A stretch of DNA of 64,000 bases from Paeniglutamicibacter sp. Y32M11 (GTDB lineage: Bacteria > Actinomycetota > Actinomycetes > Actinomycetales > Micrococcaceae), in assembly GCF_019285735.1 (NCBI RefSeq), contig NZ_CP079107.1, positions 1,984,001-2,048,000 of the forward strand, read 5' to 3'. A program made the position numbers and the translations under genes. Positions 2,046-19,320 of the stretch are shown in pieces (positions within the stretch are counted from its first letter, which is position 1; every line of letters begins with the position of its first letter). A model generated the notes under the pieces. That model saw only the letters and a program-made list of their open reading frames with translations, did no database searches and was not told the DNA's origin.

Positions 2046-3094
2046 TAGTTTGAACCACGCTCCCAGTAGCTAGGTCCGACTGGCTCGTGGAAGTCGCTCT
2101 GAGCGACCAAGAAGCCATCGGAGTCAACCGTGATCGGCAGCTGCGGCAACGGGCGACCGGCCGGACCAAAGATGACCTTGCACTCTTGAGTGAGGTCGAA
2201 GGTCGACTGGTGGCACGGGCACAGCAGGTGGTGCGTCTGCTGCTCGTACAGAGCAACGGGGCAACCAACGTGGGTGCAGATCTTCGAGTAAGCAACGATT
2301 CCGTCGTGGTGCCAATCCTTGCGCTCTTCGGAAACGTGCATCAATGCCGGGTCCAGGCGCATCAACAGAACAACGGCCTTGGCCTTTTCGTTCAGCGGAT
2401 CTTCGAGATCGTTCAAACCCTCGGGAATGACGTGGAAGACCGAACCGAGCTGCACATCCGCAGCCTTGATCGGGGTGCCCGAAGGGTCCCTGGTCAGTCG
2501 AACATTTGTGTCCCACATGGTGTGGCGAAGCTGTTCAACCATGGCACCGGCATTCTTGCCGGAACGGTCCAGATCTCGGAACATGAAGATGGCCGGGATC
2601 GGGGCCAAAGCGATGGCACCGATGAGGGTGTTACGGATCAATGGGCGGCGCTTGATGCCCATTTCCTCGACCACCTGGTTGATGATCTGCTCGGCGTCCT
2701 GACGATCCGCTTCGGGGCGGATCTCGTGGCGCAGCTCCGAGATTTCGTGGTCCGGCATCAGGGTTTTAGCCCAGTGAACGATGCCGATACCAATGCCAAG
2801 CATGGCAAAGGTGGTGCCAAGGCCGAGCATCGCGTTCTGTACACGGATTTCCGAAATATCTTCCGGACGTCCGAGAACGAAGTAAGCAATAAAGAACGAC
2901 AGCGTTCCGATGATGGAGATGATAAACAGCAGCGCTACCTGACGCTCTGCTCGCTTCTCTGCATGCGGGTCGGTATCTGCCAAGCGCTTCCGATGCGGCG
3001 GAAGGCCGGGATCCTGGAACTTGTCCAGGTCTCCCGCGCCAGCCTTAGCAACGGTGCCCGAGTCGTCCGGACTGCCGTGACTATGGTCGCCCAT
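2045..3094 (-). CDS. qcrA: Cytochrome bc1 complex Rieske iron-sulfur subunit
   Basis: 349 residues from the ATG at 3094; the frame is open upstream to an ATG at 3124. I prefer 3094 because an AAGGA sequence precedes it, while nothing precedes 3124. The Rieske cluster motifs CTHVGC (273-278) and CPCH (292-295) supply two Cys and two His. Three hydrophobic helices at about 52-73, 87-107 and 156-172 give the three-helix anchor typical of actinobacteria, instead of the single anchor elsewhere. It carries electrons from menaquinol to QcrC. It lies 69 bases after qcrC and overlaps qcrB by one base. Confidence 0.96.
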   Translation of the reverse strand: MGDHSHGSPDDSGTVAKAGAGDLDKFQDPGLPPHRKRLADTDPHAEKRAERQVALLFIISIIGTLSFFIAYFVLGRPEDISEIRVQNAMLGLGTTFAMLGIGIGIVHWAKTLMPDHEISELRHEIRPEADRQDAEQIINQVVEEMGIKRRPLIRNTLIGAIALAPIPAIFMFRDLDRSGKNAGAMVEQLRHTMWDTNVRLTRDPSGTPIKAADVQLGSVFHVIPEGLNDLEDPLNEKAKAVVLLMRLDPALMHVSEERKDWHHDGIVAYSKICTHVGCPVALYEQQTHHLLCPCHQSTFDLTQECKVIFGPAGRPLPQLPITVDSDGFLVAQSDFHEPVGPSYWERGSN

Positions 3095-3163
3095 GTTGTC
3101 TCTCATCCTTTTCTCAAGATTCATTAGTACGTAGTGATGATGGCGGTCTGGACCGCCAGCAGA

Positions 3164-3952
3164 TTAAGAAGGACGCGAAGTGAGCCAGATGGTGAAGGCG
3201 ATGATGATGCCCAAACCAGCCGTCCAGATGAACAGGCCTTCAGAGACCGGACCCAGCGAGCCAAGCTTGGCTCCACCCGGGGAACCCTGAGCTTCGATTT
3301 CCTTCAAGAAGGTGATGACGTCGCGCTTCTCGTCGGCGGTGACGTTGGAGTCATTGAAGACGGGCATGTTCTGCGGGCCAGTAACCATGGCTTCGTAGAT
3401 GTGCTTCTCCGAGACACCGGCCAGGGATGGGGCGAACTTACCGCGCGTAAGAGCACCGCCGGCAGCGGCGGCGTTGTGACACATTGCGCAGTTCACGCGG
3501 AATACCGTACCGCCGGCGGCGGCGTTGCCCTGGGATGTGTCAAGCATGTCTTCGGATGGAATGGACGGTCCGGCACCCAAGCTGGAGACATACGCAGCGA
3601 GCTGCGAGATCTGGGCGTCGTCGAACTGTACCGGCTTGGCCTGAGCCTGGGGCCCCTGCATCTGCATCGGCATACGACCGGTTCCGACCTGGAAGTCGAC
3701 TGCAGCGGCACCGACACCAATGAGCGAAGGCCCATCTGCGGAGCCTTCTGCATTCATACCGTGGCAGGTAGCGCAGTTGGCCACGAAGAGCTTGTTGCCC
3801 TCCTCGATATCGCTTGCGCTATATCCGGTGGCCGCCTTGGCCTCGTTGACGCTGCCGGCTGCCATGTATAGGCCTCCGGTGATGAGCAGGCCCATCAGCA
3901 GCAGTGCGACGGCGGCGAGTGGATGGCGACGCCTTTGCGAAAGAGCCTTCAC
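3164..3952 (-). CDS. qcrC: Di-haem cytochrome c subunit of the bc1 complex
   Basis: 262 residues. Two c-type haem motifs, CATCH (60-64) and CAMCH (155-159), match the fused di-haem QcrC that replaces soluble cytochrome c in actinobacteria and feeds the aa3 oxidase directly. There is an N-terminal hydrophobic anchor (about 13-34) and a C-terminal hydrophobic helix before a short basic tail. The frame extends to a GTG at 3967, but an AGGA sits eight bases before the GTG at 3952, so that start is chosen. The gene lies about 60 bases after ctaE. Confidence 0.95.
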   Translation of the reverse strand: MKALSQRRRHPLAAVALLLMGLLITGGLYMAAGSVNEAKAATGYSASDIEEGNKLFVANCATCHGMNAEGSADGPSLIGVGAAAVDFQVGTGRMPMQMQGPQAQAKPVQFDDAQISQLAAYVSSLGAGPSIPSEDMLDTSQGNAAAGGTVFRVNCAMCHNAAAAGGALTRGKFAPSLAGVSEKHIYEAMVTGPQNMPVFNDSNVTADEKRDVITFLKEIEAQGSPGGAKLGSLGPVSEGLFIWTAGLGIIIAFTIWLTSRPS

Positions 3953-3985
3953 TTGCTGGTTCCTCACTTATTTCTTAGAACGGGG

Positions 3986-4019
3986 GTTGCCTTTGGTAGG
4001 CAACTTAGGGGTTGCCTAC
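3986..4019 (-). promoter_or_regulatory. Two mutually exclusive hairpins between ctaE and qcrC
   Basis: On the minus strand, GTAGGCAAC (4019-4011) pairs perfectly with GTTGCCTAC (4004-3996). That second arm can instead pair with AGGCAAC at 3992-3986 (7 bp). The first hairpin contains the ctaE stop codon. A processing or stability element that sets ctaE versus qcrCAB levels is plausible but is inference. Confidence 0.45.
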
Positions 4020-4654
4020 TTCAGGAAGTAGATGATCGCGAACAACGCGATCCACACGACGTCGACGAAGTGCCAGTAGTAAGACACAACAATCGCACTG
4101 GTTGCTTCGAAGTGACCGAACTTACGTGCAATCAAGGCACGTCCGATGATCAGCAGGAAAGCGATGAGGCCGCCAGCCACGTGCAAGCCGTGGAAGCCGG
4201 TGGTCATGTAGAAGACCGAGCCGTAGGCGTTGGAGTTCAAGGCAATGCCGTGAGCAACCAATTCGGTGTACTCAAAGGCCTGCACGGAAACGAAGATGGC
4301 ACCGAGGATGAAGGTCACAACGAACCACTCGACCATTCCCCATTCCTTCAAGTTGAACAGTCCGCCGGTACGGCGAGGCTTAAGATCCTCGGCACGGAAG
4401 ACACCCAACTGGCAGGAGAATGAGCTCGACACCAGGATGATCGTGTTGATAAGTGCGAACGGAACGTTGAGTTTCTCGGTTTCGCTCGCCCACATCTCCG
4501 GCGATGCAGCGCGGAGCGTGAAATACATGGCGAAAAGCGCGGCAAAGAACATGAGCTCGCTGGCAAGCCAGACGACAGTTCCTACCGACACCATGTTGGG
4601 ACGGTTCGGCGCAGCTTGCGCCGGGGCATTTAGGGCATGAGTCGCAGTTGTCAC
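4016..4654 (-). CDS. ctaE: Cytochrome c oxidase subunit III (aa3 type)
   Basis: 212 residues from the GTG at 4654. The frame is open upstream to 4696, but family members begin near this GTG (TTATHAL), and a -10 element six bases before it fits a leaderless start. The protein has the five-helix layout of the short actinobacterial subunit III, with the conserved [20 protein letters not shown] helix near the N-terminus and FHGLHVAGG and [14 protein letters not shown] segments later. It is part of the terminal oxidase that accepts electrons from QcrC. It heads the operon with qcrCAB. Confidence 0.96.
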
Positions 4655-4660
4655 AGAGCC

Positions 4661-4690
4661 ATTATGTCTATAAAAGTGCCTCTGACACCA
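4661..4690 (-). promoter_or_regulatory. Probable leaderless promoter of ctaE
   Basis: A -10 like CATAAT (minus strand, 4666-4661) is followed by exactly six bases and then the GTG start of ctaE, so the first transcribed base would be the start codon. A weak -35 candidate, TTGGTG, lies 19 bases upstream at 4691-4686. There is no Shine-Dalgarno sequence. Confidence 0.4.
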
Positions 4691-4773
4691 ATGCATTGAC
4701 CCCCGCGTGGCGCGATTTTTGGCAGCTTCAGGCCTACAGCCGCGGAAACACGCGGGATTAACATTTCAGACTT

Positions 4774-4792
4774 TCTACGATTCGTAGATAAC
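4774..4792 (+). promoter_or_regulatory. trpD promoter region with a palindrome
   Basis: The palindrome TCTACGATTCGTAGA (4774-4788) overlaps a -10 like TAGATA/GATAAC (4785-4792) placed 8-10 bases before the trpD GTG. No properly spaced ribosome site is present, so trpD may be near-leaderless. The palindrome could be an operator; the protein is unknown. Confidence 0.35.
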
Positions 4793-4800
4793 CTTGAGGT

Positions 4801-5853
4801 GTGTCAACGAATCGAACGAACCAAAAGTTCCCCACATGGCCAACAATTCTCTCTACGCTGATCGCTGGAAGCGACCTCGATAGGGACCAAGCGTATTGGG
4901 CCATGGGCGAGGTGATGACGGGTAATGCCAGCGACGCTCAGGTGGCTGGTTTCCTTGTTGCGCTCCGCTGTAAAGGTGAGACGGTCGACGAACTGACCGG
5001 CCTGGTTGAGGCGATGATCGCTAATGCTCGACCGCTGGCCATCGAGGGTGACCACCTGGATATCGTGGGTACCGGTGGTGACCGACAGAACACTGTGAAT
5101 ATTTCCACTATGTCCTCACTTGTCTGCGCCGGTGCCGGCGCGCTGATCGTAAAGCACGGCAACCGGGCCTCATCCTCGTCTTCGGGCTCCGCCGACGTTC
5201 TGGAGGCCTTAGGCGTGCGCCTAGATGTTCCCATCGAGCGGTTGAACGATGTCTTGGATGCGGCACATATCACCTTCTGCTTTGCCAATATCTTCCACCC
5301 CTCCATGCGCAATGCCGCCGTCCCGCGACGCGAACTCGGTGTTCCCACCGCCTTCAATTTCATGGGTCCGCTGACTAACCCCGCGGAACCCAGCGCTTCG
5401 GCCATCGGCTGCTCGGACCTACGCATGGCGCCGCTGATGGCGGGAGTGCTGGCCGCCAGGGGAGTTCGCGCACTAGTATTCCGCGGCGAAGATGGCCTGG
5501 ATGAGCTGACCACAACGGCAGATAACAAGGTTTGGGAGGTGCGCGACGGGAAAGTTATCGAGTCGCTCTTTGATGCTCGTGAGCTCGGGATGGCCCGCGT
5601 GACGCTTGATGATCTGCGTGGGGGAGACGCAGAACATAATGCGCAGGTAGTTCGCGATGTACTAGATGGTGTCCATGGTCCGGTGCGCGATGCCGTGTTG
5701 CTCAATGCTGCTGCCGGCCTGGTCGCTTACGACGAATCTGCCGAGGGCTCGCTTAACGACCGTCTGGGCGCGGCAGTAGCTCGCGCCGCTGAATCCATCG
5801 ATTCCGGGGCTGCGCGCCTGGTGCTGGAGAAATGGATCGCCGCCACGGCCTAG
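4801..5853 (+). CDS. trpD: Anthranilate phosphoribosyltransferase
   Basis: 350 residues from a GTG. The enzyme transfers the phosphoribosyl group of PRPP to anthranilate in tryptophan synthesis. The PRPP-binding GTGGD is at 90-94, followed by the glycine/serine-rich loop beginning [16 protein letters not shown] (118-133) that binds anthranilate and PRPP, and the N-terminal helical domain ([10 protein letters not shown]) is intact. It stands alone, divergent from ctaE, as is common in actinobacteria where trpD is separate from the other trp genes. Confidence 0.96.
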
Positions 5854-5880
5854 TTTTACGATATTTGTTGAACTTGGACT

Positions 5881-5917
5881 GGCGCGTCGGCGCATCTCAC
5901 GGGATGTGCGGCGCGCC
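5881..5917 (+). terminator. Hairpin downstream of trpD
   Basis: An imperfect GC-rich inverted repeat (outer arms GGCGCG and CGCGCC) starts 27 bases after the trpD stop. No strong T-run follows, so it is a likely but unproven terminator. Confidence 0.45.
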
Positions 5918-6215
5918 AGCGCTGTTTCTACGCCCCTGCGGTCGATTTGTTGGGAACTGGCGCACCGGGGTGCTTCGGGTGCGGCAGGCCTCTCTGTGCC
6001 GCCTCCGCACTGCTGAAGAATCTGCCTGAACACGAGGGCAGTGATGTCCGAATTGGCGGCGAAATGCTGATGGGCGCGTAACAAAGGGCCGGAAACGAAA
6101 AAAGTTTTCACTCACTGGGTGCAGAGAATTTCCACGCAGCCTCGGATGTCGTTCGTCTCTGGACGAGTTCACACCAAGTAGCGCGGCGGTAGGGCTTTTA
6201 AGCGACAAAGCGATC
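5918..6215. other. Intergenic, no gene seen
   Basis: This lies between the trpD hairpin and the lrp terminator. Open frames here lack ribosome sites and family resemblance. I see nothing else in it. Confidence 0.5.
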
Positions 6216-6246
6216 GCGTGTCCGCCCCCACAAGGGGCGGACACGC
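6216..6246 (-). terminator. Terminator of the Lrp/AsnC-domain gene
   Basis: A perfect 13-bp stem (arms 6216-6228 and 6234-6246, core GTGTCCGCCCC) with a CACAA loop lies 37 bases after the stop of the minus-strand gene that ends at 6284. Confidence 0.7.
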
Positions 6247-6283
6247 AACCGCAGGCACATCGGCACGAAGCCGAGCTAAATTT

Positions 6284-6562
6284 TTACTCGAGACCCAGCG
6301 AAAAAGCAGCATCCAGATCGTGGCTGGAATATGCCCTAAACGCAATATGTGTCTGTGTGCCCGTAATTCCGGGGACCTTGGACAGTTTATTGGCGATGAC
6401 TTCGGCCAGATCTTCGTGGTGACGAACCCGTGCGATAGCGATCAGGTCCCAATCGCCGGCAACCGAGTAAACCTCGGAAATGCCTTCGATGTCCGAAATC
6501 TTTTCGGCGCACTCGGGAATGCTGTCAGAAGCCGTTTGGATCATGACGAATGCTGTGACCAC
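6284..6562 (-). CDS. Stand-alone Lrp/AsnC ligand-binding (RAM) domain protein
   Basis: 92 residues from a GTG with GGAGG seven bases upstream. The whole protein is the alpha-beta RAM domain that senses amino acids in Lrp/AsnC regulators: an AFVMIQTASD first strand and a YSVAGDWDLIAIARV core. The N-terminal helix-turn-helix is absent and no such domain is encoded upstream. Such single-domain proteins are known in actinobacteria and may pair with full-length regulators. Its placement near trpD suggests, but does not show, a link to amino-acid sensing. Confidence 0.9.
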   Translation of the reverse strand: MVTAFVMIQTASDSIPECAEKISDIEGISEVYSVAGDWDLIAIARVRHHEDLAEVIANKLSKVPGITGTQTHIAFRAYSSHDLDAAFSLGLE

Positions 6563-6621
6563 GTTTATACCTCCAGATGGTTATTGGGTGATGACTCCAG
6601 GAAACTTGCCTTGAGCCTAGT

Positions 6622-7005
6622 TCAGGATGCTGCGGTGCGCGCTTGGCGACGCACGATGAAAGTGGTGATCAAGCGGCGACCGATCAAGAAGATGCCGAGG
6701 ACGATGGCCGCCACGATGATAAACGGCACGGCAGCGGTGGCACCAAAGAGCACCCGCAGGGCGAGACCCAAGGCGACTGTTCCGATCCAAACGAGCACGC
6801 CGGTGGGCCAGATTCGAGAGTGATTTTCCCAGGGCCGTGAAATCAGCGTCATCGCCGCCAGTGCAATAAGGAATGGTGCTGCAGTTTGGAGCACGCCCAG
6901 GAGGGTCAGGGATTCCTCGTGGGATCTCCTACCGCTCAAGGCAAACAGCACAACGAGTACTAGATCGATCGCAAAATAAGCGATCCACGTCTTACGAGAA
7001 GTCAT
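6622..7005 (-). CDS. DUF3054 family membrane protein
   Basis: 127 residues with four hydrophobic helices. The pattern LFALSGRRSHEE followed by LGVLQTAAPFL after helix one is characteristic of DUF3054, a small actinobacterial membrane family of unknown function. The basic tail (RRQARTAAS) should be cytoplasmic. Six bases upstream of the ATG is a TAGAAT -10 and no Shine-Dalgarno, so translation is probably leaderless. It is separated from the lrp-like gene by 59 bases on the same strand. Confidence 0.88.
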   Translation of the reverse strand: MTSRKTWIAYFAIDLVLVVLFALSGRRSHEESLTLLGVLQTAAPFLIALAAMTLISRPWENHSRIWPTGVLVWIGTVALGLALRVLFGATAAVPFIIVAAIVLGIFLIGRRLITTFIVRRQARTAAS

Positions 7006-7011
7006 GTTGCT

Positions 7012-7017
7012 ATTCTA
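7012..7017 (-). promoter_or_regulatory. -10 element giving a leaderless DUF3054 mRNA
   Basis: TAGAAT on the minus strand is followed by six bases (AGCAAC) and the ATG at 7005. The inverted repeat CTACT-N6-AGTAG (7016-7031) overlaps it. No convincing -35 was found. Confidence 0.4.
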
Positions 7018-7138
7018 CTTCTCGTAGTAGCAGGCGTTGTCACGAGTCCCGTTTGCTGGACTGAATGATGTCCCACCCGGCGTGAGACATGATGGATAGA
7101 CAACCGGGGGAATTCGGTGGTCGAGGATGGGAACCAAC

Positions 7139-7285
7139 ATGAACAAGACACTCAAGCACGCATCGCGTGGTGCTTTTCTACGAACTCGCGTCCCAGTAAC
7201 CGATGGATCCGCGGCCGATGGACCTCGCTGGAATGTGAGCATTCGCCCCAAGCCGCGGTCAGTCCACCAGAAGAGCGGCGAGTGA
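7139..7285 (+). CDS. Small basic hypothetical protein
   Basis: 48 residues beginning MNKTLKHASRGAFLRTRV and ending KPRSVHQKSGE, rich in Arg and Lys. Its TGA lies seven bases before the ATG of the alkylation-repair gene, so the two may be co-translated. The ribosome site is weak (GGATGGGAACC). I do not recognise a family; it could be a leader peptide or a chance frame. Confidence 0.35.
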   Translation: MNKTLKHASRGAFLRTRVPVTDGSAADGPRWNVSIRPKPRSVHQKSGE

Positions 7286-7292
7286 TCCGCCG

Positions 7293-8396
7293 ATGCCATT
7301 CGCCGATCAACTGATTAATGAATCTACCGCGCGCAGCCTCGTGACGGCTCTGGAACTGGTGCTGCCACAGGTGGAGCTGCCCACATTAAAGACTGCCGCA
7401 ACACAGATGGACAGGCTGAGCTTACGGGAGCGCGCCGACCTCCTCCGAGATGCGTTGGTCGAAGACCTTCCGGGGAACTATGCCACATTTGCTCAGAGCA
7501 TCCGTTTGGCGAGCCAGAACGACACTTTCCGAGGATGGCTAATTTGGCCAGTTACCTCGGCGATTGCAACTAAGGCCGTGGCGCAAGGCACTGCCGAGGC
7601 TTTTGACGACGCGATGGCGCTGCTTGCCGAGCTGACCGGACGGCTGAGTGCCGAATTCGCCATCCGGACCTTATTGAGGCACGACCTGTCTCGTGCCCTT
7701 CAAATCATTGGCGGGTGGACGACATCCGAAGATCTGGATGTGCGACGTCTGGCCACCGAGGGCACTCGACCGTACCTACCGTGGGCAACCAGAGTTCCGG
7801 AAATCACCGAACAGCCCGGAGTGACGATCGCTGTCTTGGACGCCCTGTACCGAGACCCGGAAGAATATGTGCGTCGATCGGTGGCCAACCACCTCAACGA
7901 CCTGAGCCGTGATGAGCCCGAACTGGTCGTTGACACTGCGCGAGGCTGGCTTTCGGATCCCGATGAGAACACGGCGCGTTTAGTGCGACACGCCCTGCGG
8001 ACGTTGGTCAAAAAGGGGAATGCTCAGGCGCTTGAACTGCTGGGATTCGGCCCCGTTTCGGTGGAGATTAGCGGTCCCGTGCTGGGCCGTGCCAGCATCG
8101 GTTTCGGGCAGACGATCGGTTTCAGTGCGACACTTCGCAACCTCGCGGATGAACCGGCGCGCGTGGCCATCGACTACACGGTCTACCACCGCAAGGCCAA
8201 CGGGGGACAGACGGGCAAGACCTTTAAGCTCGCCACTCGTACTCTCGAATCGGGAGAAAGTTTCGAGGTTCAACGCGATCATTCGTTCCGGGCGATCACC
8301 ACCCGGCGTTATCACCCGGGAACACACGCGATCTCTGTGCAGGTAAACGGTGTTGAGTCCGAGCGGGCCGAGTTCGAGCTGCTGCCCGAAGAGTAG
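7293..8396 (+). CDS. DNA alkylation repair protein, AlkC/AlkD-like
   Basis: 367 residues. Residues about 1-250 are helical HEAT-like repeats (for example RDPEEYVRRSVANHLNDLS and PDENTARLVRHALRTLVK), the fold of AlkD/AlkC DNA glycosylases that remove positively charged alkylated bases. Residues about 255-367 look like a beta-rich Ig-like domain (VSVEISGPVLGR, FSATLRNLADEPARVAIDYTVY, HAISVQVNG), the arrangement described for the AlkC-beta branch. The C-terminal domain is the main reason to choose AlkC over plain AlkD. Substrate specificity cannot be read from the sequence. Confidence 0.85.
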   Translation: MPFADQLINESTARSLVTALELVLPQVELPTLKTAATQMDRLSLRERADLLRDALVEDLPGNYATFAQSIRLASQNDTFRGWLIWPVTSAIATKAVAQGTAEAFDDAMALLAELTGRLSAEFAIRTLLRHDLSRALQIIGGWTTSEDLDVRRLATEGTRPYLPWATRVPEITEQPGVTIAVLDALYRDPEEYVRRSVANHLNDLSRDEPELVVDTARGWLSDPDENTARLVRHALRTLVKKGNAQALELLGFGPVSVEISGPVLGRASIGFGQTIGFSATLRNLADEPARVAIDYTVYHRKANGGQTGKTFKLATRTLESGESFEVQRDHSFRAITTRRYHPGTHAISVQVNGVESERAEFELLPEE

Positions 8397-8525
8397 GTCG
8401 GCGTCCTCAATCGTGATCACGGGGCTCGGGGTGGCGTTCGATTCAACGTCTGTCCTTAGATAACCCGTGGTCCGGCGAGATTTTTGCCGCAGGAACCATC
8501 ACGAACCAAGTAGGAAGTTGAATTC

Positions 8526-9023
8526 ATGATCGCCGAAACCCTCGTTATATCCGGAAGCCAATTCAAGCTGCGTCGGGCCGTCGAATCAGATGTTGAGCAC
8601 ATTGTTGAGCTGCTGGCCAACGATGCGGTGCGACGAGCGGAAAACTCGACCGCACCCGAGCATCAAGGACAATATCTTCGGGCCTTCCGTGCGATCCAAG
8701 CGGATCCGGCACACCTGCTGATTGTGGTGACTGATGATCGGGATGCCGTTGTTGCCACCATGCAATTAACTGTCATTCCGGGGCTGGCCAGATTCGGTGC
8801 CACACGGTTGTTGGTGGAGGCCGTCCGGGTCGAGAATAACTTGCGTGGCAACGGACTTGGATCGGCGATGATGCGCTGGGCCATTGCTGAAGGTAAGCGT
8901 CGTGGCGTCGGCCTGGTGCAACTCATCAGCGACCAGTCCCGCACCGCGGCTCACAGGTTTTATGAACGATTGGGCTTCACCGCCTCCCACGTGGGGTTCA
9001 AGCTGTTCATCAAAGAGCAATGA
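8526..9023 (+). CDS. GNAT family N-acetyltransferase
   Basis: 165 residues. It has the acetyl-CoA-binding motif VENNLRGNGLGSAMMRWA (R/Q-x-x-G-x-G/A) and a C-terminal AAHRFYERLGFTASHVGFKLF, as in typical GNAT domains. AGGAAG precedes the ATG at a suitable distance. The acceptor is unknown. The gene stands alone and is followed by a strong bidirectional hairpin. Confidence 0.9.
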   Translation: MIAETLVISGSQFKLRRAVESDVEHIVELLANDAVRRAENSTAPEHQGQYLRAFRAIQADPAHLLIVVTDDRDAVVATMQLTVIPGLARFGATRLLVEAVRVENNLRGNGLGSAMMRWAIAEGKRRGVGLVQLISDQSRTAAHRFYERLGFTASHVGFKLFIKEQ

Positions 9024-9090
9024 TCCCGCGGCGGCTTTGTTCCCTCGGTGTTACTGAATCGCAAAACCAGCAATAGGTAACATGACAAAG

Positions 9091-9124
9091 TATCGGCCCG
9101 CCACATCAACGTGGCGGGCCGATA
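9091..9124. terminator. Bidirectional terminator
   Basis: A perfect 14-bp stem (arms 9091-9104 and 9111-9124, core CGGCCCGCCAC) with a 6-nt loop lies between the converging acetyltransferase and matC-like genes. Confidence 0.75.
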
Positions 9125-9160
9125 GTCTGTGAATTCTGTTGGTGCAGAAGGCGGAACGGT

Positions 9161-10609
9161 TTACATGATGCCGGTGGGTACGAGCAGGCCCCAAGCGAGT
9201 ACCGGAGCGACCAGGACCACGGCCCCGGCGTACATCATCAGCTGACGGTAGACGCGCTGGCGATCATCTTCCCTGGCGTTGGCCACTACTAAGGCGCCGG
9301 CGGTGGAGAAGGGCGAAACGTCTACGACGGTGGCGGCGATGGCAATGGCCGCAACGGTGCCGGAGGCACTCAGGGAACTGACGGCCAACAGTGGGCCGGC
9401 AAGGGGGATGAAAGCTGCCAGCAAGGCGGTGGAGGAAGCAAAGGCCGAGCCGACACCAATCACGTAGCACAACACCAGTGCGATCAGGATGGGTGCACCC
9501 AAGGCAAGCGCCTTGTGGGCAAGGGTGTCGATGACACCAACATGCTCGAGCAATGAGACGTAGGTGATCATGCCCGCCACCAGCAGGACCGTTGACCAGG
9601 AGATGCCGGCGACGAAGGACTGCTGCTTCTTGATATTGACCAGTGCCAACAGCAGCCCGGCAGAGAGAGCAACAAATCCGATGGGAAGGTGGAAGCCCAA
9701 GGTGCTCACGAGCATCGCGGCAATCAGTACCAACGTGAAGATCTGTTGTCCTCGGGGACGGACGCTGTCGGATGCGTTTGGGTCGATGTGTTTGATGCCG
9801 TCACCCTCCCGCAACTTGCCCAGAAGCGCGAAGACCACCACGGTGAGCACGGAAAGAATCAGGTTGATCACGAAGCTAGCGATAAAGAGTGCACCGGGGG
9901 AGACGGGGAAGCCGTTTTCCAGGGCGATGTCGTGCACCAAGACGCCGGCGACGGACAATGGCGAGAATCCGCCGGCGTGAGCGCCATTGATAATGAAGGC
10001 ACCCATGAGTACCGGATGAATGCGCGATTCGTAGGCAAAGCCGATGGCAGCTGGAGCCAGTAATGCAACGGCGGCCGGTGAGAAGGTACCCAGCGAGGTC
10101 AGTGCCGCAGCGACGAGGAAGAAGACCCAAGGCAACAGCATCGTCTTACCGCGGACGGCCCGCACACAATTTCTGACGATGATGTCGATGGTCCCGTTGT
10201 GCTGGGCCATGCTGAAGAAGTAGGTGACGCCGACGATGGTCAGCACGATGCTGGCCGGGAAGTCCGCCAGGATCTCCTTATCGCTCATTCCGAGCATAAA
10301 GTAGCCGATGCCGAAGGATGCGACCAGTCCCATCACTCCGATGTTCACCGGCCATTTGGTGGCGATCACAAACATCACAACAAGAACGATCAGGGGGATG
10401 ACCTGCGTGGCCGTCATGGGCGTCTCCGTATCAGAAGCAGCCGCTGGGTCGAATATGGCCCGTCCGATGATCAGGGCGAGCAGAGCGATGAAGGCGATCG
10501 AGGCTACGGCAATAATCATGACACGGCGTTTGCTGGTCGGTCGTGCGGAAGCGGTTTCGTGAACTTCCTGCTCGGCAGGTGGAGCAGGTTTTACGGCTGT
10601 ATTGGTCAT
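9161..10609 (-). CDS. SLC13/MatC-type carboxylate permease
   Basis: 482 residues with about 12 hydrophobic helices and a short basic cytoplasmic N-terminus. The layout matches the dicarboxylate/malonate carrier MatC group of the ion transporter superfamily, with an inverted two-fold repeat and small-residue loops such as INGAHAGGFSPLSVAG and a matching VGSAFASSTALLAAF in the second half. It lies 11 bases after the prpF-like gene, so the pair probably imports and processes one tricarboxylic or unsaturated acid. The substrate is not known. Confidence 0.88.
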   Translation of the reverse strand: MTNTAVKPAPPAEQEVHETASARPTSKRRVMIIAVASIAFIALLALIIGRAIFDPAAASDTETPMTATQVIPLIVLVVMFVIATKWPVNIGVMGLVASFGIGYFMLGMSDKEILADFPASIVLTIVGVTYFFSMAQHNGTIDIIVRNCVRAVRGKTMLLPWVFFLVAAALTSLGTFSPAAVALLAPAAIGFAYESRIHPVLMGAFIINGAHAGGFSPLSVAGVLVHDIALENGFPVSPGALFIASFVINLILSVLTVVVFALLGKLREGDGIKHIDPNASDSVRPRGQQIFTLVLIAAMLVSTLGFHLPIGFVALSAGLLLALVNIKKQQSFVAGISWSTVLLVAGMITYVSLLEHVGVIDTLAHKALALGAPILIALVLCYVIGVGSAFASSTALLAAFIPLAGPLLAVSSLSASGTVAAIAIAATVVDVSPFSTAGALVVANAREDDRQRVYRQLMMYAGAVVLVAPVLAWGLLVPTGIM

Positions 10610-14586: not shown

Positions 14587-14766
14587 CTCCAGTTTCTTTA
14601 CGCTGGCTTTGCACTCTACTGGATCTGGCCTTGGAGCTGGGTCTCGGCCATGACCTGATGAGAAGGTGATCGATGGCTAGCCGCAGGGTGACCGGCAGGA
14701 TGTTGAATACGGCAAGATCCAACAATCGACCGGCAAAAAACTACGCCGTATGGCCCCGACAAGCCA

Positions 14767-15093
14767 TCAAATCTGGAAGTACAGCTCGAGGTGGAGCTTG
14801 CATCCGGGATTAAACTCCGCGGCGCACTCGGGGCAGCTTCCGAGCCCAAGATACGTAGAGATCCTCAGCTGACACCCGCAGACGCCGCAGAGCACTGCCC
14901 GCTCGGCACGGCGACCCACCGGCCACTGCTCTGCGGCATGATCCGCGGCCACGCCATGGCAGAGATGGCATGGATAAAAATCACCGCAGCACACGAACTT
15001 GATAGCAATTACGTCTAGCGGCGTCCGATAGTGAATGCAACGCGTCTGGTCATCAACCACCGGGCCCAAGACCTGCGGCCGCTGCCGGCTCAT
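14767..15093 (-). CDS. CHY-type zinc finger protein
   Basis: 108 residues. The CHY zinc-finger pattern is complete: RCIHYRTPLDVIAIKFVC near the N-terminus, FYPCHLCH, then CGVCGCQL, SCPECAAEFNPGCKLH and a YF end, giving about nine Cys plus several His for zinc. Bacterial CHY proteins of this size have no settled function; the eukaryotic relative Hot13 acts in redox and metal handling. Its ATG overlaps the bioN stop (ATGA), so it is translationally coupled to the biotin-transport operon. That placement is unusual. Confidence 0.88.
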   Translation of the reverse strand: MSRQRPQVLGPVVDDQTRCIHYRTPLDVIAIKFVCCGDFYPCHLCHGVAADHAAEQWPVGRRAERAVLCGVCGCQLRISTYLGLGSCPECAAEFNPGCKLHLELYFQI

Positions 15094-15701
15094 CGCACAC
15101 CACGCGCGGTTAGTGCATCTCCAAGTTCATCGGCGTGTTTAAGCGCGACGATCAGAAAGGGGATCACGAAGGTTCGCGGGTTGTTCCGCGCCCCACGGTC
15201 CCGCTGCGCATCACGTACCTCGGCCGCCCGGCGTCCGAGCACCGGGATGGTGCTGATGGTGACCGTCAGCAAGAGGGCGCATCGCGCCGCGTCCAGGCCC
15301 AACCGTTCCAGGGGGCGCAGCCCGCGCTCGATAGCATCCAGCAGCGCCGTCACCCGGGTGGTGAGGGACAGCAGCGCGGCGAGTACGATCGCCGCGGTGA
15401 CCCGGACGGTATTGGCCACCGCGGGCTCAGGACCCATAAAAATCAGCTGACTGACCAGGGTGATCACCATGATCCAGCGAAGCGAAAAGACCTGGTGTCC
15501 CAGCTCCCGGATCCCACTGAGACCCGGTCCCAGACCTGTCACCGTGTAGCCCGCCACGGCCACGAGTGCTGCAATGGCGGCCGTGGACCAGTGGACCGGC
15601 AGCAAGGACACGACCAGCACCACCGCCAAAATCAGCAGCAGCTTTGGACCGGCGGGCAGCCGATGCAGCCAGCCGGTCCCCGGGCGGTACAGCGTCAGCA
15701 T
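15090..15701 (-). CDS. bioN: ECF transporter T component, biotin type
   Basis: 203 residues with about five hydrophobic helices in the N-terminal half. A cytoplasmic helical region follows (ERGLRPLERLGLD and RRAAEVRDAQRDRGARNN) that resembles the coupling helices of EcfT, which contact the ATPase. It joins BioM and BioY in the tripartite energy-coupling-factor biotin importer. It overlaps bioM by seven bases upstream and the CHY gene by four bases downstream. Confidence 0.92.
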   Translation of the reverse strand: MLTLYRPGTGWLHRLPAGPKLLLILAVVLVVSLLPVHWSTAAIAALVAVAGYTVTGLGPGLSGIRELGHQVFSLRWIMVITLVSQLIFMGPEPAVANTVRVTAAIVLAALLSLTTRVTALLDAIERGLRPLERLGLDAARCALLLTVTISTIPVLGRRAAEVRDAQRDRGARNNPRTFVIPFLIVALKHADELGDALTARGVR

Positions 15702-16387
15702 GCCAGCACCGCCTCATATTGGGAGATGATCTCCTCCGGTTCCCCGAGGCCCACCAGCGCTCCATCGGCAAAAAGTGCGACCTGTTCGCACCGTGCCGCC
15801 AGCGCAAGGTCGTGGGTGACAAGCACCAGGCGGTGTCCGGCGTCCGCTAAGAGGTGTTCGGCGACGCGGCGGGCGTTGCGGGCATCAAGGTACGCGGTTG
15901 GTTCATCGGCAATGACCAGTTCCGGGTTGCGGACCATGGCACCACAGAGCGCGAGCAGCTGTTTCTGGCCACCGGAAAGATCGTGTGAGGGGCGTTGTGC
16001 CAGCTCCGTGAGCCCGAAGTGTTCCATGGCTGCACCCACCCGTCGGGTGAGCTCCGCCGGTGGGAGGCGCTCTGTGCGCAGCGAGAAGGCCACGTCCTCG
16101 GCAACGGTCGGCATGATGATTTGTGCGTCGGGGTTGCTGAAGACGATCGCGATGCGACGGCGCAACTCGGCAGCCCGGCGTGCAGGATCTATGCCCATGA
16201 TGCTCAGTTCACCCGAGGTTCGATTGATCAAGCCACCGAGCACTCGAGCAAAGGTAGATTTACCCGAACCGTTCTCCCCAATGACCGCGACGGTGCGCGC
16301 TTGAAGATCCAGGGACAGATTTTGCAGCACGTCCACCTCGCCCAGGCGCACCCCGACGTCCCGAAGTCGAATAGCCGCCGCGCTCAT
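15695..16387 (-). CDS. bioM: ECF transporter ATP-binding component, biotin type
   Basis: 230 residues from the ATG at 16387. The frame is open much further upstream, but that ATG overlaps the thiolase stop (ATGA), and the protein begins as the family does. Walker A GENGSGKST (37-45), a LSGGQKQ signature and the Walker B region LVIADEPTAYLD are intact, and the switch His follows in LVTHD. It is the only ATPase in the operon, so it probably works as a homodimer, as in known BioMNY systems. Confidence 0.94.
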   Translation of the reverse strand: MSAAAIRLRDVGVRLGEVDVLQNLSLDLQARTVAVIGENGSGKSTFARVLGGLINRTSGELSIMGIDPARRAAELRRRIAIVFSNPDAQIIMPTVAEDVAFSLRTERLPPAELTRRVGAAMEHFGLTELAQRPSHDLSGGQKQLLALCGAMVRNPELVIADEPTAYLDARNARRVAEHLLADAGHRLVLVTHDLALAARCEQVALFADGALVGLGEPEEIISQYEAVLAC

Positions 16388-17508
16388 CGAACCACCTCCA
16401 CGACGACGGCGATCCCCATGCCGCCACCAATCGATGCAGCTGCCACTCCAAAGGTCCCGGCCGGGGCACCGGAGCGCACGAGCCGACTGAAGAGTCGGAC
16501 CACCGCGATGGCACCACTGGCGCCCCACGGATGACCGAGTGCCAGCGCACCTCCATCGGCGGACAGTCGCGGGTCATCGTCCTTGAGTCCGAGCCGATCG
16601 AGCACCGCGAGGCTCTGGGCGGCAAAGGCCTCCACAATTTCGAACGCAGCAATGTCCCCCATCTTCAAACCCGCCGAGTCGAGGGCGGCCCGGATGGCTC
16701 CGGCGGCGCCGATGCCAGGTAGTGCCGGATCGCAGCCCGTAACTGCCGAGGCTCTCAGGCCAAGCCCGGGTCCGGAGCCGGGCCCGGCTAGCACCAGGGC
16801 AGCCGCGCCATCCCCGATGCGCGTTGCCGTGCCGGCGGTGAGCGTGCCACCGGGAAAAAGTGGTGGCAGGCGGGTGAGCAGTCGTTCCGCGCCGCCGATC
16901 GCGTCGTCATGCTCCAGCCCGGCCAGCGGCACCAGCTCGGCGGTGAAGCGCCCGGCCGACAGTGCCGCCCGGGCGCGCGCATGACTGCGGGCCGCATGGG
17001 CATCCTGACGTGGGCGTGACAGCTGATCGTGCACCGCTAAGTCCTCGGCGGCCCGGGTCATTTCCGGGTCGCTGAAGCCGGAAGGAGCAAAGGGTGCCTT
17101 GTCGTAGCCTTTGCCGTTGATCGAACGCACCGGTGCCGTGGAGGCACTCTCAACACCTCCGGCGATACGCATCCGAGGATCGCCGGCGCGGATCGCTGCC
17201 GCGGCATCAAGTAGTGCGGCCAGCCCGCTACCGCACTGTCGATCCACCGTGGCACCGGGCACCGCGTGGCCCAGACCGGCCGCCAGCGCGGAAACCCGGC
17301 CGGGGTTTCCACCCGGGCCCATGCAGTTGCCCAGAATCACATCGGCCACGTTGATCGGAGCACCGTGGATAGCCTCGGCATCGTTGAGGGCAGCCCGGAT
17401 CACCGGCGCGGCCAGTTCCTCCACGCGTAAGTGGGCCAGGGCGCGGCCGCGGGTACCAATCGGTGATCGTCGGGCGGCGATGATCACCGGATCATTCTTA
17501 GCGGCCAA
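16384..17508 (-). CDS. Thiolase family protein with altered active site
   Basis: 374 residues from a TTG with GGAGG nine bases upstream. The nucleophile Cys92 (VDRQCGSGL) and the GHP histidine His326 (ALALGHPWGASGA) are present. The usual NEAF motif reads VEAF (292-295), and the usual second cysteine of the CIGGG motif is Ser359 (AAASIGGGMG). Loss of both the oxyanion-hole Asn and the acid/base Cys suggests it is not an ordinary acetyl-CoA acyltransferase. It sits between an acyl-CoA ligase-like gene (11-base overlap) and bioM. A role in an acyl-CoA step linked to biotin or a precursor is inference. Confidence 0.88.
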   Translation of the reverse strand: MAAKNDPVIIAARRSPIGTRGRALAHLRVEELAAPVIRAALNDAEAIHGAPINVADVILGNCMGPGGNPGRVSALAAGLGHAVPGATVDRQCGSGLAALLDAAAAIRAGDPRMRIAGGVESASTAPVRSINGKGYDKAPFAPSGFSDPEMTRAAEDLAVHDQLSRPRQDAHAARSHARARAALSAGRFTAELVPLAGLEHDDAIGGAERLLTRLPPLFPGGTLTAGTATRIGDGAAALVLAGPGSGPGLGLRASAVTGCDPALPGIGAAGAIRAALDSAGLKMGDIAAFEIVEAFAAQSLAVLDRLGLKDDDPRLSADGGALALGHPWGASGAIAVVRLFSRLVRSGAPAGTFGVAAASIGGGMGIAVVVEVVR

Positions 17509-18583
17509 GAGGCTGCACCTCCCCGGCCAGTACCAAACGCAGGGCTTCGACCCGCGCGGGTTTGCCCGACGCGGTGCGTGGAATGTTCCCGGTGAACCAA
17601 CGTCGTGGCCGGTGAGCCGGCAGTAGCTGGGCGCGGCTGAGGTCTGGCACAGTTACCTGCACATCGTCTTCGAGCTCCAGCAGGGCGGAGACCAAGGAAC
17701 CAATGTGCTCCCGCGGATATCCGAACACCAGCGCGTCGCGAACCCCCGGGATTAAGCGCAGTGCCGCCTCGACTTCCTCGGGCACGATCGTGGCCGAGGC
17801 ACTGAGAATCGCGTCATCTGCCCGGCCCAGTAGGCGCAGGTAACCGTCATTGAGTTCGGCGCGGTCACCGACGGTGGCCCAGTCGCCGTCGCGGCGCAGG
17901 GGACCGGTGGCACCGGCATATCCGGAGGCGATGAACGGTGAGCGCACCCACAGCTCGCCGTCGCGGATCTCCAGCTCGGCACCCGGGAAGGCGCGCAATC
18001 CCTCACCGGTATCGCACGCAACAAAGGACAGCTCTGCCGCACCGTAGTAGGCGGTGACGCGGATCCCCGCGGCTTCGGCGCGCTGGCGTAGCGCCGGATC
18101 CAGGTGGGAGCCGCCGATCAAGGCCGTACGCAATCGTGGTGAAACTCCCGCGTCGAGCAGGGCGCGCAATGACTGTGGGGTGCCGTGCAGGGCGTCGGCA
18201 TCCACGGTGCCGCCCAGCAGTGGCTTCGGGCCACCGGACAAGGAATGGGCGAGTGAAAATAGGGTGAGTGAGGATGCCGGCGGGACCGGAAGAGCCACCT
18301 GGCTCTCCGGTCCAGCATCCAAGAATTCGCTAGCGGCTGCGAAGGAGTCTGCCCAGGATGCGGCGCTGCGCAGCACGATCCGCGGCGCCCCACTGCTTCC
18401 GGAGGTCAGTGTCGCCCAAGCGGTTGCCTCGGGCACCTGAGCACAACGCGCTTTCGCGGTGATGGCGTCCCAATCGCTGGTGCTCCACCGGCGGTCACCG
18501 ACCAGGGGGATGTCGCCGGCCGCGCGGATCCGTCCAAGGCGCTGAGGCAGATCGGGTTCGGCATCGGTGAGGGGAATGATCAT
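17498..18583 (-). CDS. AMP-binding (acyl-CoA ligase-like) enzyme
   Basis: 361 residues from the ATG at 18583, which overlaps the bioY stop by one base (TAATG). An adenylate-forming core is evident: TLTSGSSGAPR phosphate loop (about 90-100), YYGAAELSFV, the GDRAELNDGYLRLLGRADD hinge region, and a C-terminal TASGKPAR with the catalytic-type Lys. At 361 residues it is shorter than most members (450-550), close to compact MenE-like ligases, and lacks much of the usual N-terminal subdomain. Operon context suggests it activates a carboxylate that enters through BioY, possibly biotin, a breakdown product or a pimelate-like precursor (inference). Confidence 0.86.
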   Translation of the reverse strand: MIIPLTDAEPDLPQRLGRIRAAGDIPLVGDRRWSTSDWDAITAKARCAQVPEATAWATLTSGSSGAPRIVLRSAASWADSFAAASEFLDAGPESQVALPVPPASSLTLFSLAHSLSGGPKPLLGGTVDADALHGTPQSLRALLDAGVSPRLRTALIGGSHLDPALRQRAEAAGIRVTAYYGAAELSFVACDTGEGLRAFPGAELEIRDGELWVRSPFIASGYAGATGPLRRDGDWATVGDRAELNDGYLRLLGRADDAILSASATIVPEEVEAALRLIPGVRDALVFGYPREHIGSLVSALLELEDDVQVTVPDLSRAQLLPAHRPRRWFTGNIPRTASGKPARVEALRLVLAGEVQPLGR

Positions 18584-19209
18584 TAGACCCGGTCCAAGGC
18601 TCGGGTTGGTGTGGCCGCCCACACGCGGGCGAAGGCTCGAGGATACGCCCGGAGAAGAGTCGTCACGATGAACGTCGCGGTGACGACCTTGAACAGGTCA
18701 CCCGGCAGGAAGGCCGAGCTCATCAGGAGGGTCTGGCCGAGCGGCAGTCCGGTGATCATGCTCTGCACCGGGACCCCCACGGCGTAGATGACCGGGATTC
18801 CCCCCACAAAAATGCCGAGCGCGGTCCGCCAAACCACCGGCTTGCGCCCTGCGGCATGCACGATCAGACCGATCACCAATGCGCCAAGAATCCAGCCGAT
18901 GAGGTATCCGGCCGATGGACCGAAGAAAACGCCGATGCCACCGCGTCCGCCGGCCAGCAGCGGTAGACCAATCGCTACCAGTGCCAGCAGCACCGTCATC
19001 GACAGTGCGCCTAACCATGGACCCAGAATGGCTCCGGCGAGCATCACGCCGAGCGTTTGGACGGTGATCGGAACGCCGCCCGCGAGGGTGAAGCCGCCCG
19101 GCAGGCCAAGGACGGCAACGATGGCGGCGAACACGGCGACCCGGGCTAGGCCTTTGGCGTCGAGTCCTCGTCGGTCGTGACGATTTGGCAGGAGTTCTGG
19201 AGGGGCCAT
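18583..19209 (-). CDS. bioY: Biotin transporter substrate-binding subunit
   Basis: 208 residues from the ATG at 19209, chosen because AAGGAA lies seven bases upstream and the longer frame adds an implausible tail. Six hydrophobic helices with the BioY signatures GGVPITVQTLGVMLAGA, GGRGGIGVFFGPSAGYLIG and a PGDLFKVV end identify the S component that binds biotin. It is the first gene of the operon and lies just behind a BioQ-like operator. Confidence 0.95.
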   Translation of the reverse strand: MAPPELLPNRHDRRGLDAKGLARVAVFAAIVAVLGLPGGFTLAGGVPITVQTLGVMLAGAILGPWLGALSMTVLLALVAIGLPLLAGGRGGIGVFFGPSAGYLIGWILGALVIGLIVHAAGRKPVVWRTALGIFVGGIPVIYAVGVPVQSMITGLPLGQTLLMSSAFLPGDLFKVVTATFIVTTLLRAYPRAFARVWAATPTRALDRV

Positions 19210-19263
19210 GGGAAGATTCCTTTTGATTAATGGTGAACGAGGCGAACCTGAACACTGCTCAAT

Positions 19264-19276
19264 TGAACGCCGTTCA
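19264..19276. promoter_or_regulatory. BioQ-like operator
   Basis: TGAAC-GCC-GTTCA is a perfect 5-3-5 palindrome. The actinobacterial TetR-type repressor BioQ is known to bind a 13-bp palindrome of the form TGAAC-N3-GTTAC or similar. The site lies 55 bases before the bioY ATG and just downstream of the -10, where binding would block transcription when biotin is ample. No bioQ gene is in the window. Confidence 0.8.
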
Positions 19277-19290
19277 GGAGGTTGGTGTTC

Positions 19291-19320
19291 ACTATAGTGA
19301 TACCGCGGCAAAAGAAACAA
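19291..19320 (-). promoter_or_regulatory. Promoter of the bioY operon
   Basis: On the minus strand TTGTTT (19320-19315), an 18-base spacer and TATAGT (19296-19291) form a good housekeeping promoter. The transcript would start near the operator. Confidence 0.6.

Follow-up and report, generated by a model that had tools for sequence, protein, structure and literature searches.

The DNA analysed here is a stretch of 64,000 nucleotides from the soil actinobacterium Paeniglutamicibacter sp. Y32M11 (assembly GCF_019285735.1, contig NZ_CP079107.1, positions 1,984,001 to 2,048,000; hereafter the window). On its minus strand, six overlapping genes join the energy-coupling factor (ECF) transporter genes bioY, bioM and bioN to a gene for an acyl-activating ligase, a gene for a thiolase-fold protein and a small CHY zinc-finger gene. 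The ligase-thiolase pair lies between bioY and bioM behind a BioQ-type operator, this arrangement is conserved in homologous loci, and the thiolase-fold protein lacks the cysteine that serves as the base in canonical thiolases. Our favoured reading, which we hold tentatively and at slightly less than an even chance, is that of a BioQ-controlled biotin-acquisition operon, in which the ligase would activate the imported biotin-type acid and the thiolase-fold partner would transfer or release the acyl group without carbon-carbon chemistry.

Conservation of the gene order

The genome_contigs collection was scanned with the ligase family, and the best 80 of 225 confirmed relatives, which constitute the nearest part of the family, were compared (L and G denote loci and genomes, respectively). 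The gene coordinates counted are those of tblastn-anchored open reading frames (ORFs), alternative ORF picking over-extending the starts, and the ligase ORFs of L026, L029 and L056, each interrupted by an in-frame stop, were left out. The nearest named locus, with a ligase 95% identical to that of the window, belongs to Paeniglutamicibacter terrestris. The genes bioY, ligase, thiolase, bioM and bioN follow one another in this order in 67 of the 80 loci, either with all six genes in the order of the window (39 loci) or as five genes without CHY (28 loci). The shorter architectures bioY-ligase-thiolase (three loci), bioY-ligase-thiolase-bioM (two) and ligase-thiolase-bioM-bioN-CHY (one) may in part be due to contig ends or gaps in ORF calling. 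In a single locus from Garicola koreensis (L167), where bioM falls under the identity threshold, bioY and bioN precede ligase and thiolase; the order at 4217-10287 is TetR gene, bioB-like gene (by eye), bioY, bioM, bioN, ligase, thiolase. Finally, six loci contain ligase and thiolase without transporter genes.

In the window, the successive ORFs overlap by 1, 11, 4, 7 and 4 bases (14767-19209, from ORF coordinates), and the overlaps most frequently found across the homologous loci are 4, 11 or 8, 4, 7 and 4 bases. All six products score above the curated cut-offs of the Pfam models BioY, AMP-binding, Thiolase_N/C, ABC_tran, CbiQ and zf-CHY. Thus, the six genes and overlaps of the original prediction, which had been drawn up from the letters of the window, were reproduced exactly and their families are backed by Pfam; the conservation of gene order that it had proposed as a check is borne out by the 67 loci. 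A chance neighbourhood of the six genes is ruled out by the conserved order, the overlaps and the operator controls described below. When the neighbours of 101 loci were clustered, no strong additional partner emerged among the first 45 clusters, which include antisense ORFs from GC-rich sequence.

The BioQ-type operator and its regulator

The palindrome TGAAC-N3-GTTCA is a predicted BioQ site, and BioQ-type boxes are predicted before the bio genes of Corynebacterium glutamicum in the available text of PMC3398298. Two boxes of this type precede bioY in the window (Table 1). For comparison, we used the 78 loci with enough upstream sequence, the region reaching from 250 bp upstream to 50 bp downstream of the bioY start or, in loci without bioY, of the ligase start. 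An exact box was present in 70 of the 78 homologous upstream regions, and two exact boxes 15 bp apart in 46; in 65, an exact box is accompanied, at a distance of precisely 15 bp, by another with no more than two mismatches. Control palindromes with shuffled half-sites gave 0 matches in these regions. This result, together with the exact box of the window, supports the single operon with a BioQ-type operator that had originally been proposed.

A divergent TetR gene is located within 600 bp upstream in 54 of the 80 loci. The best PDB matches of its product are 5xs9, 5yej and 5yek, all listed as TetR family, which we take to be structures of Mycobacterium smegmatis BioQ. Seven close relatives (L108-L114) have no divergent TetR neighbour. 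The genome of strain Y32M11 (G000) contains six exact BioQ-type sites, with about 2.5 expected from base composition. One of them precedes a second, plain bioYMN operon (L039, G000:C1:1741355-1743470), and two, 45 bp apart, are found upstream of bioB (G000:C1:3425383-3426297; L041, L059). We infer that the operon in Paeniglutamicibacter sp. Y32M11 is regulated by BioQ. Exact boxes at G000:C1:530800 and 2954412 lie within or at the start of called ORFs.

Four of the six stand-alone ligase-thiolase units likewise carry an exact BioQ box of their own before the ligase (L115, L118, L119 and L165), and none is found before L145 and L162. Given the conserved order and these boxes, the ligase-thiolase pair itself seems to be a lasting part of the presumed biotin regulon, which supports the link to the biotin genes drawn in the original prediction. 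A box away from bioY would also suit the main rival explanation, a fatty-acid rescue at biotin starvation, when the biotin-dependent acetyl-CoA carboxylase fails. The ligase would then capture exogenous or recycled fatty acids as acyl-CoA, the thiolase-like enzyme would pass them on and malonyl-CoA would be spared; the link to biotin would be one of need, not of substrate. We consider this rather unlikely, although a serious contender: the pair is interleaved within the transporter genes, and its overlaps with them are conserved.

The thiolase-fold protein has lost catalytic residues

In canonical beta-ketothiolases of the Zoogloea type, Cys89 is the nucleophile, Cys378 the base that takes the proton of the substrate, and Asn316 and His348 form the oxyanion hole, as described in the available text of PMC3406046. 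The protein encoded in the window has the same fold and keeps C92 (Cys89) and H326 (His348), whereas V292 replaces Asn316 and S359 replaces Cys378; moreover, the family consensus has Pro in place of Met288 in the VMG fingerprint. We aligned 97 family rows (94 distinct sequences) with nine thiolase paralogues of the same genome, two rows (L159 and L177) being truncated and without resolved residues in the later columns. All 96 resolved family rows retain the nucleophilic Cys89, and all 95 that are resolved at His348 retain that residue. At the position of Cys378, in the CxG motif, we found Ser in 78, Ala in 17 and Cys in 0 of 95 resolved rows; at the position of Asn316, in the NEAF motif, 87 of the 95 have Val, five Thr, one Gly and two Asn (L054 and L055). 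All nine own-genome paralogues contain Cys378, and eight of them Asn316. The TLP1 protein of M. smegmatis likewise has a thiolase fold with lost catalytic residues; unlike the window family, with its retained Cys and His, it has also lost the nucleophilic cysteine and has an extra domain, according to the same source (PMC3406046).

Five plasmid homologues were inspected by eye. The residue at position 378 is Gly, Gly, Gly and Ala in four alphaproteobacterial proteins and Ala in one from Nonomuraea; Asn316 is kept in the Sinorhizobium and two Azospirillum proteins, that is, in three of the four from Alphaproteobacteria, and His348 in all four. In a tree, the thiolase-like proteins from the two phyla group together in a single clade, separate from the own-genome paralogues, with a support of 100/100; some branches are long, Marivivens among them. 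Ordinary thiolases are listed in a fold search with the structural model.

Taken together, the thiolase-like protein is probably not a beta-ketothiolase; more likely, the ligase supplies its substrate and it works as a Cys-His acyltransferase or thioesterase. The half reaction leading to the acyl-cysteine should survive, while neither Claisen condensation nor thiolysis is expected, because the base Cys378 is missing. Hence, of the acyl-CoA step originally envisaged, acyl activation is retained on the strength of the ligase sequence, and a carbon-carbon step by the thiolase is not. The missing Cys378 also speaks against beta-oxidation or acetyl-CoA condensation as part of a fatty-acid rescue.

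The same columns bear on a salvage route in which bisnorbiotin or other short-chain breakdown products of biotin enter the cell, are converted to CoA thioesters and have their chain lengthened again; the thiolase fold would act on malonyl-CoA like a decarboxylating ketoacyl synthase (KAS), and general reductases would follow. KAS enzymes function without the thiolase base, the alphaproteobacterial members retain His348 and mostly Asn316, and most carriers in the order are genomes without bioB that depend on scavenging. However, such chain repair is quite improbable, since Val, Thr or Gly replaces Asn316 in 93 of 95 resolved actinobacterial rows, and the only reductase-like recurrent neighbour, of short-chain dehydrogenase/reductase type (by eye), is seen at 7 of 101 loci and there mainly on the opposite strand.

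A ligase next to a thiolase fold also resembles side-chain beta-oxidation, as would suit catabolism of biotin for carbon, and Streptomyces produce biotin antivitamins, as would suit the detoxification of biotin-mimicking antimetabolites imported by BioY. Both are very improbable: the residue Cys378 is missing, and catabolism would have the wrong sign, as expression of BioQ-type operons is expected under biotin scarcity. This is the case for C. glutamicum bioYMN, which imports biotin and is induced by biotin limitation according to the available text of PMC3398298.

The ligase

The ligase carries the signature YYGAAELSFV and an A10-type lysine, K341; E184, D240, R254 and K341 are invariant in 18 aligned ligase sequences. 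Its AlphaFold model has a predicted local distance difference test (pLDDT) score of 87.4. The first PDB match of the model is MenE, and the fold search lists general ANL enzymes, whereas the top profile match is the amide bond synthetase McbA. For this latter reason, formation of a CoA thioester is likely but not certain, and the ligase may instead act as an amide synthetase. MenE, other ANL ligases and McbA are the nearest solved relatives by profile and fold; nevertheless, the identity is about 20% and the genomic context is different. A function as MenE (o-succinylbenzoate-CoA ligase) is ruled out by scores far under the curated cut-offs, namely 99.8 bits (cut-off 345) with one MenE model and 72.1 bits (cut-off 330) with a second. 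That the fold is an ordinary ANL one, close to MenE and to ligases of fatty acids, would fit a fatty-acid rescue.

Related systems in other phyla

The pair is not confined to Actinobacteria. Sinorhizobium meliloti and two Azospirillum plasmid records contain the order bioM-bioN-bioY-ligase-thiolase, and in Marivivens ligase and thiolase are convergent with bioY and the genes for the T and A components. An acyl-CoA thioesterase gene on the opposite strand follows the Sinorhizobium set (L198, 7200-7601), and a gene for a major facilitator superfamily transporter follows the two Azospirillum sets (L199, 7408-8657; L200, 7232-8467). A scan of viral contigs gave no match, and a second search of plasmids yielded mostly ordinary thiolases.

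In Bacillota, the pair yhfS-yhfT is controlled by BirA, as is bioY, in the available portions of the relevant papers (PMC6391492, PMC7235819, PMC11089781, PMC6323116). The bioY/yhfT/yhfS genes of Bacillus subtilis and Staphylococcus aureus thus resemble the window in that an S component, an acyl-CoA ligase-like gene and an acetyl-CoA acetyltransferase-like gene stand under biotin control, which for the window is judged from operator and gene order. They differ in that the present operon has BioQ instead of BirA and also comprises bioM, bioN and, in many loci, CHY. The control of the pair by BirA (PMC6391492, PMC6323116) is compatible with a fatty-acid rescue, the more so as B. subtilis YhfT, itself BirA-controlled, is described as involved in surfactin production in the accessible part of PMC6323116.

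All five bio-linked thiolases that were scanned match PRK06690 best after the general model TIGR01930. Two alphaproteobacterial ligases and the ligase of L055 match PRK07638 best, and that of L048 matches no model at this threshold. We take PRK06690 and PRK07638 to be the models for YhfS and YhfT, respectively. The scores obtained with both stay under the curated cut-offs, those of the window proteins being 91.8 of 518 bits for PRK07638 and 275.1 of 498 bits for PRK06690. Compared with YhfT, the window ligase is short, much of the N-terminal domain being missing, and its MenE score is slightly above its PRK07638 score.

The bioYMN genes of C. glutamicum likewise encode an actinobacterial biotin ECF importer with predicted BioQ-type boxes upstream; in contrast to the window, they are three in number, and the available text of PMC3398298 names no ligase, thiolase or acyl-CoA member of the operon. 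In the open-licence PMC literature, we found no actinobacterial or alphaproteobacterial description of a link between the ligase-thiolase pair and biotin. The linkage is a variant of the known bioY-yhfT-yhfS theme, with a gene set that reaches beyond Actinobacteria, while the absence of the thiolase base from all resolved members examined, the CHY member and the spread over phyla appear to be new relative to the literature found.

Biotin synthesis genes in genomes with the operon

The order Actinomycetales was sampled with 149 genomes, of which 29 pass the carrier threshold of at least 84 bits for the ligase match. G086 was not counted, as its match (94.1 bits) has no thiolase or bioY nearby and lies far from the bioY of that genome. 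Two genomes with bioB fall below 84 bits and do not enter the counts either: G085, where the match reaches 79.9 bits and bioY lies on the opposite strand at a distance of about 3 kb, and G005, with 82.8 bits and 35 kb between match and bioY. In 25 of the 28 carriers bioY lies within about 4 kb of the ligase gene; contig ends bar a verdict in two (G015 and G040), and in one the two genes are apart (G122).

bioB is missing in 23 of these 25 linked genomes and present only in strain Y32M11 and G062; in 21 of the 25, several of them drafts, bioB is missing and the bioY of the operon is the sole copy. Over the whole order, bioB scores above the cut-off in 18 of 149 genomes, with little difference between carriers (2/28) and others (16/121). 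Thus, the carriers are mostly predicted biotin auxotrophs, and would not be special in that among the genomes of the order. Because of the protein families and of bioY being the sole copy in many genomes without bioB, BioY together with BioM and BioN is predicted to take up biotin, presumably with high affinity, or a close biotin-type acid. With S component, ATPase and T component side by side, the window is accordingly predicted to encode a BioMNY-type biotin ECF transporter.

A search for bioD in 34 genomes, a set that includes all 28 carriers, was positive in 6, among them one carrier (G062); the genome of strain Y32M11 gave no bioD match. The bioF cut-offs failed to separate bioF from kbl, with 0 of 34 genomes passing, and the best bioF match of strain Y32M11 is probably kbl, as a tdh-like gene adjoins it (by eye). 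Its bioB has no recognised adjacent bio genes. As bioB is present without a bioD match and the bioF match lies beside a tdh-like gene, this organism can probably only finish the conversion of dethiobiotin to biotin.

These data bear on a further explanation, the synthesis of pimeloyl or another precursor feeding the biotin pathway. It would account for the ligase and thiolase annotations and for the biotin-type operator, and the original prediction had listed a pimelate-like precursor among its options. The search for bioB, bioD and bioF does not support it: most linked genomes lack bioB, a single carrier has bioD, and the bioF match of strain Y32M11 is probably kbl. A role in precursor synthesis is therefore ruled out as the main explanation, and its residual chance is the slightest of all those weighed here.

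The CHY protein

The original prediction had called the CHY gene unexpected. By tblastn, 40 of the 80 operon loci contain it, 39 of them as the sixth gene, and it can thus be regarded as a conserved but optional, accessory member. Its Cys and His columns are conserved in 41 CHY sequences, which indicates a zinc protein. Of 41 genomes searched, 17 have a CHY match, one each: all 15 with a CHY gene in the operon, compared with 2 of the 26 others. The counts of loci and genomes rule out CHY as a chance sixth gene.

Layout of the operon in the window

The features of the operon are listed in Table 1. The single promoter originally assumed found no confirmation, as a scan for sigma-70 patterns upstream of bioY returned no promoter match. 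Terminator-like hairpins are not enriched (three found, shuffle mean 3.2). Elsewhere in the window, the translated ORFs on the minus strand of 369-4696 resemble, by eye, a cytochrome bc1 complex and a subunit of cytochrome c oxidase.

Table 1. Genes, operator boxes and hairpin of the biotin operon (positions in the window).
Feature	Position	Strand	Evidence
BioQ-type operator TGAACGCCGTTCA	19264..19276	.	exact match to TGAAC-N3-GTTCA; 54 bp before bioY start
Second BioQ-type operator TGAACACTGCTCA	19249..19261	.	one mismatch; 15 bp from first box
bioY, predicted biotin-specific S component of ECF importer	18583..19209	-	Pfam BioY 116.7 bits, cut-off 25; ATG at 19209
Short ANL-superfamily acyl-activating enzyme (predicted), 361 aa	17498..18583	-	Pfam AMP-binding and AMP-binding_C above cut-off
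Thiolase-fold enzyme (predicted), TTG start	16384..17508	-	Pfam Thiolase_N/C; active-site columns; AlphaFold model pLDDT 88.5
bioM, predicted ECF ATPase (A component)	15695..16387	-	Pfam ABC_tran 95.7 bits; top NCBIfam model ECF_ATPase_1, under its curated cut-off
bioN, predicted ECF T component (CbiQ family)	15090..15701	-	Pfam CbiQ 48.4 bits, cut-off 25
CHY zinc-finger gene, 108 aa, optional sixth gene	14767..15093	-	Pfam zf-CHY 43.4 bits, cut-off 31.3
Weak terminator-like hairpin directly 3' of CHY gene	14744..14761	-	hairpin scan; count not above shuffles

Discussion

We propose that BioY, with BioM and BioN, brings in biotin or a close biotin-type acid, whose side-chain carboxylate would be charged by the ligase at the expense of ATP, most likely to the CoA thioester; the intact ANL motifs are the reason to expect ATP-dependent activation of a carboxylate. 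Cys92 of the thiolase-fold partner would then accept the acyl group with the help of His326. Since there is no Cys378 base for Claisen chemistry or thiolysis, the acyl group would most likely be handed to another nucleophile or to water. In this way, the pair would remodel, retain or release the imported biotin-type acid when biotin is scarce. The substrate is most likely biotin or a biotin-like acid, and a fatty acid activated under biotin starvation is the main rival.

Several observations weigh against this proposal. Acyl-CoA dehydrogenase matches are present in 31 of 32 carriers and further thiolases in 31 of 32, as would befit a general role in fatty-acid metabolism, and the surfactin link of YhfT suggests fatty acids as well. 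Contrary to this rival, the carrier genome of L150, a metagenome-assembled genome (HGW-Actinobacteria-4, completeness not given), has no acyl-CoA dehydrogenase match and a single thiolase match. The two enzymes are also not always found together or intact: L057 (G116) has a bioY-ligase-bioM-bioN operon without a thiolase-like gene, L031 shows none in the 1.4 kb available after the ligase, and the ligase matches of G016, G106 and G122 in the order each contain one in-frame stop. The Sinorhizobium ligase is unannotated, stops interrupt the upstream portion of its reading frame, and the gene may be broken. With respect to regulation, the best BioQ homologue of strain Y32M11 is weak and distant (34% identity, at 207952-208500 of the genome), and a BioR-like pattern had no match in the four alphaproteobacterial loci. 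Lastly, a serine at position 378 could keep some activity.

A wider version of the proposal, which we regard as doubtful, would hold for several phyla: imported biotin or a vitamer would be charged by a dedicated ligase, and the acyl group moved by a thiolase-fold Cys-His acyltransferase that has permanently lost carbon-carbon chemistry, the system being switched on at low biotin. If true, this would put the biotin carboxylate to a third use, in addition to protein biotinylation and breakdown, for example in trapping, storing or interconverting the vitamin.

A biotin-controlled ligase-thiolase pair has already been noted in Bacillota, where the available texts give it no settled role in biotin metabolism. 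Such a pair is common to Actinobacteria and Alphaproteobacteria, and in the order sampled it occurs mainly in genomes without bioB. The annotation as thiolase is no safe guide to the chemistry here, and a vague annotation is thereby turned into a testable question about a small operon, with residues and substrates that can be named. With biotin as the substrate, the pair would reveal a step so far missing from vitamin metabolism; with a fatty acid, it would show how cells bridge the loss of acetyl-CoA carboxylase. The presence of the same gene set in distant bacteria points to an unrecognised chemical step in the handling of imported biotin.

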